DNA of 64,000 nt. It comes from Candidatus Planktophila lacus (GTDB lineage: Bacteria; Actinomycetota; Actinomycetes; Nanopelagicales; Nanopelagicaceae). The notes beneath the pieces are model-generated. The model did not search any database, had not been told where the DNA came from, and was given only the letters and a program-made list of their open reading frames with translations. Position 1 is the first letter of the stretch. The number at the start of each line of letters is the position of its first letter. A program made the position numbers and the translations under genes. The stretch is taken from positions 496,001 through 560,000 of the forward strand of contig NZ_CP016783.1 in assembly GCF_002288385.1 (NCBI RefSeq), given 5' to 3'. Below, piece by piece: positions 12,922-48,056 of the stretch.

Positions 12922-12928
12922 GTGGGCG

Positions 12929-12934
12929 AGAATA
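12929..12934 (-). promoter_or_regulatory. Leaderless -10 for sepH
   Basis: Reading leftward, TATTCT then 7 nt then the sepH ATG. The rest of the gap up to 13091 is the rplS leader, where I saw no clear promoter. Confidence 0.5.
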
Positions 12935-13091
12935 CCCGCAGCGGGTGAGAAAGTCGGGCAGGGTGAGCCTCTGGCTGAACGGGAGGGAAGGGCCGATTTA
13001 CGCTCGGCGCCCCTTCTGTGGCAAGATACGCAGTCTGCACAACACTTTTAGTTGCGCTTGTAAACGCTTAAAAATAGATGAGGACCTTACG

Positions 13092-36864: not shown

Positions 36865-37950
36865 TTAATGGCTCCTACGAGTTGCGCTAGTTGCGAGTTC
36901 AACGAGTAACTCGCGGGCTGAAGGGTCAATTTCATCAGAGTTTGCCGCAGTTAGCGCGTTGGAAAGAAGCCCCTCGATGAGATCTTCGACAACTTTAACT
37001 GCGCCCGTTGCGGTAATAAGGGCACGAATTTCTTCGATTTGATCGGCGGTTAGATCTTCGCGGCCTAAAGCGGCGGTGATCTTGGCGCCACTTGCTTGGT
37101 CTGCGCGCTCTAGCGTCATCGCCATCAAAACAGTGCGCTTGCCTTCACGAATATCATCGCCGGCTGGCTTACCGGTAACAGATGGATCGCCAAAGATTCC
37201 GAGCATGTCATCACGCAATTGGAATGCCTCACCAAGTGGCAGACCATATGCGCTCAAGATATTTGTTAAATCTTTTCGTTCTGCCTCATCGGTAATCGCA
37301 AGTGATGCACCTAAATGCAGTGGGCGTTCAATTGTGTACTTTCCAGATTTGTAACGGGCAATGCGAAGTGAGCGATCAACGCTAGGAGAACGTTCACCGG
37401 CTTCACGAACATCTAAATACTGTCCCGCCATAAGTTCGATGCGCATCTCATCATGCACCTTTAGCGCCGATAAGAGCGCGCTATTTTCAACACCAGAGGT
37501 ATGAAGTAAATGATCTGACCAAACTAAAGCTAAGTCGCCGAGAAGTACTGCTGCTGCTTCACCAAATTGATCTGCCAAACCGCTCATCGCTTCTTGTTGA
37601 TGCAAGTTCTCAAAGTGGCGATGTATCGCAGGTTTTCCGCGGCGAGTATCTGAACGATCCATTAAGTCATCATGGATAAGCGCACATGCTTGCAATAGTT
37701 CGAGGCTGGTGAATGCGCGAATATCGGCAGCGGTTGCAACCTTGCCAGTTGCCGCAAAGCCGGCATATGCAAAGAGTGGGCGAAGGCGCTTCCCACCTTC
37801 AAGCAAGAAAGATTCGAGGGCATCGCATACTGGGATTAACTCAGAGCCGATGCCACTTAAATATTCGCGCTGCAAGGTCAGATAAGAAGTTAGTTCGCTT
37901 TGAACCGTCTCGCGTACCGCTAAAAGCGTGCCACGTGCATCGTTAACCAC
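36865..37950 (-). CDS. crtE: Polyprenyl (geranylgeranyl) diphosphate synthase
   Basis: Builds the C20 precursor for CrtB. The first Asp-rich motif is LIHDDLMDRSD and the second is QLRDDMLGIFGD; GGKRLRPLF binds the allylic diphosphate. I choose GTG 37950 (361 residues) and not the ATG at 37986, which would lie inside metF, because a -10-like TACCGT sits exactly 6 nt before it. The gene is divergent from metF over a 22-bp shared promoter. Confidence 0.92.
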   Translation of the reverse strand: MVNDARGTLLAVRETVQSELTSYLTLQREYLSGIGSELIPVCDALESFLLEGGKRLRPLFAYAGFAATGKVATAADIRAFTSLELLQACALIHDDLMDRSDTRRGKPAIHRHFENLHQQEAMSGLADQFGEAAAVLLGDLALVWSDHLLHTSGVENSALLSALKVHDEMRIELMAGQYLDVREAGERSPSVDRSLRIARYKSGKYTIERPLHLGASLAITDEAERKDLTNILSAYGLPLGEAFQLRDDMLGIFGDPSVTGKPAGDDIREGKRTVLMAMTLERADQASGAKITAALGREDLTADQIEEIRALITATGAVKVVEDLIEGLLSNALTAANSDEIDPSARELLVELATSATRRSH

Positions 37951-37972
37951 GGCGCAACGGTACCCTGACCGC
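37951..37972. promoter_or_regulatory. Bidirectional leaderless promoter crtE / metF
   Basis: Between the two GTG starts lie 6 nt, then TACCGT reading left (37957-37962), overlapping by TA with TACCCT reading right (37961-37966), then 6 nt. The geometry is identical to the ybaK/MFS gap at 46823-46844. Confidence 0.6.
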
Positions 37973-38854
37973 GTGGAGATGCGCATGAAGGAGATCGGCG
38001 AAGGCGTTACTTACTCCTTCGAGTTCTTTCCTCCGAAAGACCCAGAAGGTGAAGAACGCCTATGGAGCGCTATGCGCGCCCTTGAGCCAATTGCTCCTGA
38101 TTTCATCTCAGTTACTTATGGTGCAGGTGGCACAACCCGCGATCGCACGATTCGGATAACTTCCGAGATAACGCAGCGCACCCATATTCCAACAGTTGCG
38201 CACTTAACTTGCGTTGGTTCCACGCGCGATGAGTTAATCGAAATTTTAGCTCGCTATAAGCAATCTGGAATCCATAACATTCTCGCCCTTCGTGGAGATC
38301 CAACCGGGGGACCGCGTGCGCCTTGGACGCCAACACCTGGCGGTTTAAATCACGCCGACGAATTAGTAACGCTCGCTGCTGAAGTCGGCGGATTCACAAT
38401 TGGCGTTGCCGCATTCCCCGATGGACATCCCGCATCAGGGTTAAATTTCGATGAAGATATTGAAGTTCTGCTCCGTAAAGAAAAAGCCGGTGCATCATTT
38501 GCAACAACACAGTTCTTCTTCGAAGTAGATAAATGGAGAGCGCTCGTCGATCGCTTATCAGCACGTGGCTCAAAACTGCCGATCATCGCAGGCATATTGC
38601 CGGTCACAAATGTTGCGCAGTTAAATCGTATGGCCGAGTTAAGCGGCACACCGATTCCACCGGCTATCGCTGCGCGTTTTGAAGCGCTGAAAGATTCACC
38701 AGATGATGTCCGTAAGTTAGGCGTAGAAATCGCCACAGGCCTCTGTGAAGATTTACTGGATGCAGGCGTGCCGGGTCTTCACTTCTACACAATGAATACT
38801 TCTTCGGCAACACGCGAAATATTTGAGCAGATCAAAGATAAGAAACGCGGATGA
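37973..38854 (+). CDS. metF: Methylenetetrahydrofolate reductase
   Basis: Reduces 5,10-methylene-THF to 5-methyl-THF for methionine synthesis. The protein shows YSFEFFPPKDPEGEERLW, FISVTYGAGGTTRD and NILALRGDPTGG, all typical of MetF, with FAD-binding residues in a TIM barrel. I choose GTG 37973 (293 residues): the longer start at 37928 overlaps crtE, while TACCCT lies 6 nt before this GTG. ATG 37979 and 37985 are alternatives. It is followed by a CDP-alcohol phosphatidyltransferase with an ATGA overlap. Confidence 0.93.
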   Translation: MEMRMKEIGEGVTYSFEFFPPKDPEGEERLWSAMRALEPIAPDFISVTYGAGGTTRDRTIRITSEITQRTHIPTVAHLTCVGSTRDELIEILARYKQSGIHNILALRGDPTGGPRAPWTPTPGGLNHADELVTLAAEVGGFTIGVAAFPDGHPASGLNFDEDIEVLLRKEKAGASFATTQFFFEVDKWRALVDRLSARGSKLPIIAGILPVTNVAQLNRMAELSGTPIPPAIAARFEALKDSPDDVRKLGVEIATGLCEDLLDAGVPGLHFYTMNTSSATREIFEQIKDKKRG

Positions 38855-46333: not shown

Positions 46334-46822
46334 CTAGTCTCCTACAACCATTGGGGTGGCGCCCGTGCAAGTAATTAATTCGGCGTAACTAGTTGGGTAG
46401 ACCGCATGCGGGTGTCCAGATGCTGCCCAGACAACTTCATAATCATTTAACGCTTGATCAATCAGAATCTTCTCGGGTTGGCTAATCCAACCAAGTGGTG
46501 CAACTCCACCTACTGAATAACCAGAAATTTCTTTTACATAATTGGCATCTGCGCGACCAAGTTCGGCGATACCTAAATTCTTCGCAACTAAATCAGTATT
46601 AACGCGGTGGCGACCACTGGTGATGATCAATAGGGGATTGCCTGAAGGAAGTTTGAAGATAAGAGAAGAGGCGATCTGCCCAACTTCAATTCCTAAACCA
46701 TTGGCGGCATCGACTGCAGTTCGGGCGGTCTCAGCAAGAACAGTTACTTGTCCTTTAACGCCAAGGTTGGTGGCTGCTTGAATAAAGCGTTTTACCGCTG
46801 CCTTTTCGAGGATGCCTTCCAT
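46334..46822 (-). CDS. YbaK/EbsC family aminoacyl-tRNA deacylase
   Basis: A 162-residue editing-domain protein that hydrolyses mischarged tRNA. The conserved SLIFKLPSGNPLLIITSG and YSVGGVAPLG stretches are present, with the conserved Lys and the Gly-X-X-Pro-type loop. Length is typical. It starts at ATG 46822, divergent from the MFS gene over a 22-bp shared promoter, with TATCCT 6 nt before its ATG. Confidence 0.88.
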   Translation of the reverse strand: MEGILEKAAVKRFIQAATNLGVKGQVTVLAETARTAVDAANGLGIEVGQIASSLIFKLPSGNPLLIITSGRHRVNTDLVAKNLGIAELGRADANYVKEISGYSVGGVAPLGWISQPEKILIDQALNDYEVVWAASGHPHAVYPTSYAELITCTGATPMVVGD

Positions 46823-46844
46823 AGTTGCAGGATACCCTTGGCGA
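46823..46844. promoter_or_regulatory. Bidirectional leaderless promoter ybaK-like / MFS
   Basis: 6 nt, then TATCCT reading left (46829-46834) overlapping by TA with TACCCT reading right (46833-46838), then 6 nt to the MFS ATG. It has the same 22-bp layout as crtE/metF; the two 10-bp cores differ at only two positions. Confidence 0.6.
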
Positions 46845-48056
46845 ATGTCTATCGGAGCACTTGATCAAAACCACCGTGCGAAATTAGCTAGAAATTCTCT
46901 TCGCGTCTGTTTCCTCTTGCTCGGAATAGTTTCTATGGGTTGGGTTCCGCGCATTCCCGAGATTAAAGATCTAATCGGGCTTTCAAATGGAGCTTTTGGC
47001 TTTGTTCTTTTGGGAAGCACCTTCGGATCAATTACTGGAGCACAGCTTGCCGGAAGGTTGATGCATACCTTCGGATCGCAGAAGGTAATTTTCGTTGGAG
47101 TATTCATAATGCCTGCTGGGTTAGCGGGTATGGGCCTAGCAACTAATGCAGTCACCTTGTTCTTGACTTTGTACACCATGGGCCTTGGCTATGCCCTGAT
47201 TGATATGTGTTACAACTTTCAAGCAACCGTGGTTGAAAATATTTTGGGCCGCCGTTACATGTCCTCATTTCACGCAATGTGGAGCATGGGCGCGTTTGTG
47301 ACAACTGTTCTTGGTGGCGCAATTACTCGCCATGTTTCACCGCGCACAAATTTGGTTGCCATTGCGATCGTCTCTTTGATCGCCTATCTCATCGCTGCTT
47401 ACTATTTGCTTCCTTCATCGATTGACGGGCATAAGGGCGATGAAGAACATCAAGCAAAGATTCCGCTTTTCGGTAAATCTGTTATGCCGCTCTGGTTCTT
47501 GGGCGTCGGACTTCTCGCCAGCTTGGTCGGTGAAGGCGCGGCAAGTGACTGGGGCGCAATTTTATTGCGCGATGAAATGGGCTATGGCAAAGGTGTTTAT
47601 GCATCAGCATTCGCATCCTTTGCTCTCGCCATGATTGTCAGCCGCTTCTTAGGCGATCGCGCACTCGATTATTTCGGTCCAGCGCGTTTAGTAAAACTTG
47701 GTGGATATTTCGGCGGAAGTATTTGGGGGATTGCGATGCTAATTGCGATTCCAATGTCGGATTCTTATCCAATTCCTGCGCTGATAATTGTGAATATCGG
47801 CTTCATCGCAGCAGGCCTTGGCATTGGTCCAATGTTTCCTGCATTTATCTTGGCGGCAAGTAAGACTCCAGGGATTGCGCCAGCAGTTGCAATATCGCGC
47901 GTTGGTGTAATTGGTATCGCCGGCTTCTTCTTCGGTCCAACGGTTACAGGTTTGATCGCCGAATATACAAATCTTTCAATTGGTATGGCTTATCCGGTTT
48001 TGATGTTGATTCTGGCGGGCTTCTTATCGAAGTCGATTAAGACAGGTAAGGCTTAA
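46845..48056 (+). CDS. MFS transporter (YbjJ-like)
   Basis: A 403-residue major-facilitator protein with about 12 membrane segments. The cytoplasmic loop after the second helix reads GRLMHTFGSQKVI, and a long loop (SSIDGHKGDEEHQ) divides the halves. ATG 46845 is chosen because TACCCT lies 6 nt before it and the longer reading overlaps the divergent gene. Substrate is unknown. Its stop interlocks with that of the convergent TauE/SafE gene. Confidence 0.87.
   Translation: MSIGALDQNHRAKLARNSLRVCFLLLGIVSMGWVPRIPEIKDLIGLSNGAFGFVLLGSTFGSITGAQLAGRLMHTFGSQKVIFVGVFIMPAGLAGMGLATNAVTLFLTLYTMGLGYALIDMCYNFQATVVENILGRRYMSSFHAMWSMGAFVTTVLGGAITRHVSPRTNLVAIAIVSLIAYLIAAYYLLPSSIDGHKGDEEHQAKIPLFGKSVMPLWFLGVGLLASLVGEGAASDWGAILLRDEMGYGKGVYASAFASFALAMIVSRFLGDRALDYFGPARLVKLGGYFGGSIWGIAMLIAIPMSDSYPIPALIIVNIGFIAAGLGIGPMFPAFILAASKTPGIAPAVAISRVGVIGIAGFFFGPTVTGLIAEYTNLSIGMAYPVLMLILAGFLSKSIKTGKA

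Follow-up and report, generated by a model that had tools for sequence, protein, structure and literature searches.

How two divergently transcribed genes can each be supplied with a promoter when almost no DNA lies between them is the question raised by a short intergenic gap in the genome of Candidatus Planktophila lacus. The window analysed here is a stretch of 64,000 nucleotides of this genome (positions 496,001-560,000). A YbaK-like gene and an MFS gene run away from each other here, and 22 nt (positions 46823-46844) part their start codons; CAT-AGTTGCAGGATACCCTTGGCGA-ATG is the full gap with the codon at either end. At its centre lies AGGATACCCT, which reads TATCCT leftward (46829-46834, minus strand) and TACCCT rightward (46833-46838, plus strand); the -10 elements of the two strands overlap here in a symmetric core, and the TA at 46833-46834 is common to both. 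Each -10 element is separated from the ATG of its own gene by a 6-nt spacer, so that on both sides the first T of a TANNNT motif lies about 12 bp upstream of a start codon, as in leaderless promoters (PMC3160421). A preliminary description of the locus had given this geometry, and it is established to the base.

The leftward gene (46334-46822, minus strand) encodes a 162-aa protein, predicted to be translated from a leaderless message, that matches the Pfam aminoacyl-tRNA editing family tRNA_edit (PF04073, 2.1e-22). Its score against TIGR00011 YbaK_EbsC is 45.2 bits, far under the cut-off of 153.25, and the label "ybaK-like" used earlier is a fair one. The rightward gene (46845-48056, plus strand), also predicted to be leaderless, encodes a 403-aa transporter that matches MFS_1 (PF07690, 1.2e-18) and whose closest named relative among the matches is in Candidatus Planktophila lacus (99% identity in the best segment), which fits the acI affiliation of the preliminary description. 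The listed MFS reading frame begins at an earlier ATG (46812); the gene caller chose the ATG at 46845, and that start is adopted here. By eye, a Shine-Dalgarno sequence at working distance is absent at both starts. The motifs AGGA and AAGGG end 12 nt ahead of the start codons, inside or beside the -10 region, and were rejected by eye as Shine-Dalgarno sequences because of this excessive distance. The ybaK-like gene has T at -1 and the MFS gene has A; the latter, not being C or T, counts against a leaderless bidirectional reading. At its far end, the MFS gene overlaps a convergent TauE-like gene by four bases at the stops (48053-48056).

The reading that best accounts for these features, with a probability of roughly 0.86 on the sequence evidence, is that the 22 bp at 46823-46844 constitute a compact bidirectional core promoter in which two leaderless -10 elements overlap by TA. 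RNA polymerase carrying what would be the housekeeping sigma factor would bind the core in either orientation, with the palindromic TA occupying positions -12/-11 of both -10 elements. The last T of each element would lie at -7, which puts the predicted transcription start of either gene on the A of its ATG. The starts predicted from the -10 positions are 23 bp apart, and the products would be two leaderless mRNAs, presumably translated as such. One polymerase at a time would fit on the core, so the two directions may be mutually exclusive, probably with no regulator involved. The shared TA requires four fixed bases, as against six for two separate -10 elements, which would make the arrangement easy to originate and shorten the gap.

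Single genes of the genus carry the same signal. A simple script was used to call genes across 464 kb of the P. lacus genome (1.41 Mb in all) and 400 kb of each of four genomes of the same genus (2.06 Mb together), giving 1901 genes and 207 divergent pairs. Upstream of the 414 divergent-gene starts, TANNNT is found at 6 nt in 103 cases, at 7 nt in 52, and at 8 nt in 12, compared with 0 to 8 cases at each of the remaining distances between 0 and 29; the P. lacus sample has the same peak. Among the 244 genes with TANNNT at 6 nt, 77% have C or T at -1 and 2% have G; among the 1507 genes lacking the motif at 6-8 nt, the shares are 45% and 17%, respectively. The TANNNT signal is thus established genus-wide, and its strong excess 6-7 nt before start codons is the recognised sign of leaderless genes. 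Together, the peak and the pyrimidine at -1 agree with the leaderless promoter of Actinobacteria described in PMC3160421 and PMC3898074.

The layout recurs within the window. The pattern CAY-N6-ANNNTANNNT-N6-RTG matches exactly two places, the ybaK/MFS gap and, as the preliminary description had noted, the gap between crtE and metF (GGCGCAACGGTACCCTGACCGC, 37951-37972). This second gap lies between a crtE-like polyprenyl diphosphate synthase gene (36865-37950, minus strand, GTG start; PF00348, 3e-49) and the methylenetetrahydrofolate reductase gene metF (37973-38854, plus strand, GTG start; PF02219, 2e-91; TIGR00676 above cut-off). The simple gene caller placed the metF start at an ATG 6 bases further in, for a gap of 28; the gap is counted as 22 because the earlier position is a start codon (ATG or GTG) in relatives, several of them having ATG where P. 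lacus has GTG.

Of the 93 genomes that had a crtE match, 50 (the best 30 and 20 from the remainder) were used for the ortholog comparison, with one locus truncated. The core ANNNTANNNT is in register in all 49 readable crtE/metF loci, at crtE identities of 54-100%. Its A, T, A, and T never change, and neither do three further columns of the core region; the other inner columns and most flanking bases vary. Of the 49 loci, 42 have a start codon where it is expected, with a gap of exactly 22 in 37 of them and 23 in 5; the core is still kept in the seven that have no start codon there. In five of these seven (L213, L214, L216, L217, and L218), a different protein behind an AAAGG Shine-Dalgarno-like leader replaces metF, by eye; a search with one fragment of this replacement protein gave no NCBIfam match. 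In another locus (L224), the letters beside the kept core resemble, by eye, the first metF codons of relatives and then give way to stop codons, which would fit decay of metF. Since the core is kept at crtE where there is no leaderless metF partner, it can outlast that partner, as a promoter would.

Conservation of the ybaK/MFS module is narrower. The comparison covers 40 ybaK loci (the best 30 of 81 genomes with a match and 10 of 11 further loci, a Sinorhizobium locus being left out): the 22-bp module is present in 17, which are not 17 species, since contigs L085-L092 probably repeat species already among the other genomes; the gap is 29 bp in 15; the leftward element stands alone at 6 nt in five and at 8 nt in two; and one locus is truncated. 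In the 29-bp gaps, TANNNT occurs twice without overlap, at 6 nt from the start on either side. Of the 39 readable loci, 37 (17 + 15 + 5) therefore have the leftward TANNNT at a distance of 6 nt from the start, and the other two have it, by eye, 8 nt away. Nine genomes with the module, among them P. lacus, agree throughout in the 16 bases GCAGGATACCCTTGGC; of the remaining six positions, five vary. The overlap at ybaK/MFS is found in one clade; another clade has two separate -10 elements at the 29-bp gap, so overlap is not required. Identity to the P. lacus MFS protein is 44.8-59% in the 29-bp group, whose MFS genes, on this measure, may not be strict orthologs. Conservation is established at both loci, and in sequence terms it argues for some constraint at crtE/metF and for turnover at ybaK/MFS. 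The notion of the module as a recurring form is borne out by the crtE/metF core (49 of 49) but holds less well for the ybaK/MFS copy, which is not common to all relatives (15 have separated elements).

Comparison with control patterns indicates where the layout exceeds expectation. In the P. lacus genome there is no raw excess, with four matches versus five for the reversed pattern; two of the four are true divergent gaps, both in the window, one is intragenic, and one lies between genes of the same direction. Across 61 genomes of the genus, P. lacus included, the pattern with 6/6 spacers has 305 matches versus 169 reversed and that with 5/5 spacers 93 versus 225 reversed; orthologs are included in these as in the family and phylum counts, so that the matches are not independent events, and the 5/5 control is imperfect because the 20-bp pattern does not share the reading phase of the 22-bp one. 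Per genome, the 6/6 count is above the 5/5 count in 56 and below it in one. The exact 17-bp TANNNTA form has no excess in the genus (91 versus 203 reversed), which counts against the shared-promoter reading. Within the family (201 genomes), there are 724 matches versus 459 reversed, with an excess in the P. lacus genus (332 versus 173) and in genera g8, g16, and g17 that is missing in g2 (42 versus 48) and g4 (53 versus 64). A 22-bp match with the centre AAGACTAAACTT (for example, G059:C98:6996-7023) was seen by eye in 19 of 22 g16 genomes and in one of g7; judged from its sequence, it is probably one more conserved module. Among 60 genomes of the phylum, P. lacus included, the 6/6 pattern has 111 matches versus 86 reversed and the 5/5 pattern 101 versus 110 reversed; in the 59 without P. 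lacus, the 6/6 count is above the 5/5 count in 26 and below it in 14. The module as a broad phylum trait was rejected, the excess being slight.

The 6/6 spacing excess is also seen in a 9 x 9 matrix of spacer combinations over the 2.06 Mb of the five genomes. The 6/6 cell holds 12 matches, and the other 80 cells have a mean of 2.59 and a maximum of 7; with the two window loci removed, the comparison is 10 to 2.59 (Poisson p about 4e-4). Paired divergent starts occur at 6/6 (five), 6/7, 7/6, and 8/6 (one each) and in no other cell. Two control cores have raw counts of 11 and 8 at 6/6 among cells ranging from 2 to 24, with no peak at 6/6 and none there on paired divergent starts; over all 81 cells, they fall on true divergent starts two and zero times. 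The five true 6/6 pairs are crtE/metF in two genomes, ybaK/MFS, and a TauE-like locus in two genomes (orthology by eye).

Gap classes place the 22-bp form in a wider context. TANNNT is found on both sides of 39, on one side of 84, and on neither side of 79 of the 202 divergent pairs with a gap of at least 0; the 5 of 207 pairs with negative gaps, one of them the crtE/metF pair of G072, were left out. The 39 both-sided pairs comprise 5 with the shared-TA offset, 3 with the TANNNTA offset, and 31 with separate -10 elements. Gaps range from 18 bp (core TANNNTA) through 22-24 bp (shared TA) to at least 27 bp (two separate -10 elements), and all of these occur; the 22-bp form is one state within this range. 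The TANNNTA overlap falls on the true divergent starts of biotin ligase and carboxyltransferase genes in G066, where the families were identified. Like pairs, functionally linked by biotin, were seen by eye in P. lacus and G108, and TANNNTA gaps of 18 bp are located at L051:15196-15213 (P. lacus), L134:8808-8825, and L101:2835-2852. A 23-bp gap in the window (12922-12944, AGAATACCCG) separates a DUF3071 gene from a long L19 reading frame; it has a leftward TATTCT 7 nt from the ATG and a rightward near-miss, TACCCG, and the true L19 start may be downstream.

The second instance had been taken earlier to turn a curiosity into a pattern, one that an excess of 22-bp divergent gaps genome-wide would support. 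Counted in this way, the support is weaker than claimed: the P. lacus genome has two true instances, and in the five-genome sample the caller gives three gaps of 22 bp among 207 pairs, which become five, representing three independent loci, after two crtE/metF gaps are given the conserved upstream start. As a pattern, the module stands on the genus excess (305 at 6/6 versus 93 at 5/5), but there are few independent loci per genome. The shared-TA slot holds 5 of the 14 independent both-sided loci, spread over 13 slots (p 0.003, window loci included), with independent loci counted by hand, look-alike gaps merged as orthologs, and crtE/metF added because the gap-class count had missed it. Leaving out the two window loci reduces this to 3 of 12 (p about 0.06), which was counted against the shared-promoter reading, as was the absence of the shared-TA form from 42 divergent pairs sampled in three other genera. 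The suggestion of a bidirectional-promoter-like module is nevertheless favoured by its recurrence at crtE/metF and by the excess over spacing controls across the genus.

The closest alternative is that two independent leaderless promoters merely overlap, in which case the short gap would follow from genome compaction and the shared TA would play no part of its own. This has somewhat less than an even chance, and it is nested in the best explanation, since its parts are equal and only the overlap is inconsequential; confidence in one does not exclude confidence in the other. Consistent with independent promoters are the 15 related loci with separate -10 elements in the 29-bp ybaK/MFS gap, the range of gaps from 18 bp upward, and the fact that the exact pattern has no more than two true instances in the P. 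lacus genome, against which stand the prominence of the shared-TA 6/6 cell in the matrix (12 versus 2.59) and the overlap at crtE/metF in every readable ortholog compared.

The near-palindromic core might alternatively be an operator to which a regulator binds between the genes. The cores AGGATACCCT and ACGGTACCCT are partly palindromic and the crtE/metF core persists in seven loci without the expected start codon, as an operator could, yet across loci (AGGATACCCT, ACGGTACCCT, ACCATACAAT, and AGTCTACGCT) only the A, T, A, and T of the -10 positions recur. Because the inner bases, which an operator common to the loci would preserve as well, differ between loci, and because the recurring positions match the start-codon distance of the single-gene TANNNT signal, this explanation is rejected as very improbable. 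Coincidence of start codons with short A/T-rich letters of no function is scarcely credible. It would fit the four matches versus five reversed in the P. lacus genome, two of the four not being divergent gaps, but the excess is specific to one spacing, the TANNNT signal is genus-wide, and the bases held invariant across species at both loci already contradict chance.

If the bidirectional core promoter is the correct reading, little DNA can separate and, seemingly, drive two genes: a core of 10 bases, four of them fixed. Since the start codon fixes where transcription is predicted to begin, the layout is recognisable from sequence alone, and candidate bidirectional promoters become countable in uncultured genomes for which there are no RNA data. 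The crtE/metF locus, where the core is constant and the partner gene has changed in some species, is a good case for asking whether the overlap itself is selected. It is conceivable, if doubtful, that the shared-TA core works as a switch with two positions, in which polymerase bound one way excludes the other and ties outputs such as those of crtE and metF together in each cell without a regulator, the overlap being selected for this effect.

The shared-TA leaderless layout is genuine, and some gene pairs conserve it, but it combines two features that were known before. Bidirectional promoters are defined by divergent start sites 7-25 bp apart (PMC10268837), and in E. coli the commonest separation is 18 bp, with 10 and 23 also common (PMC12825309). 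Calculation assigns 18 bp to TANNNTA and 23 bp to the shared-TA core, which makes the geometry one already known. In five E. coli bidirectional promoters described there, basal activity was too low for polymerase competition to matter, and competition was seen once one side was strongly activated (PMC12825309). As far as they are described in PMC10268837 and PMC12825309, the shared -10 bidirectional promoters of Warman et al. 2021 likewise have a pseudo-symmetric -10 region serving both directions, and the separation of 23 bp predicted here is among their common distances; their core is TATAAT, whereas the core here is TANNNT, and the start sites here are predicted to coincide with the start codons, so that the core fills the whole gap. 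Among the literature matches listed, no title or abstract concerned leaderless bidirectional promoters in this group. Leaderless promoters of Actinobacteria (PMC3160421, PMC3898074) and Deinococcus (PMC12340547) also place TANNNT 6-7 nt before ATG or GTG. According to PMC3898074, M. tuberculosis promoters have no conserved -35 element, and a pyrimidine at -1 is common at its mapped start sites, a feature shared by most such genes of this genus. What differs in P. lacus is that two of these promoters would stand back to back with a common TA. A further parallel is the divergent pair prpD and Rv1129c of M. tuberculosis (PMC3898074), neighbours that are both leaderless by start-site mapping, as the ybaK-like and MFS genes are predicted to be.
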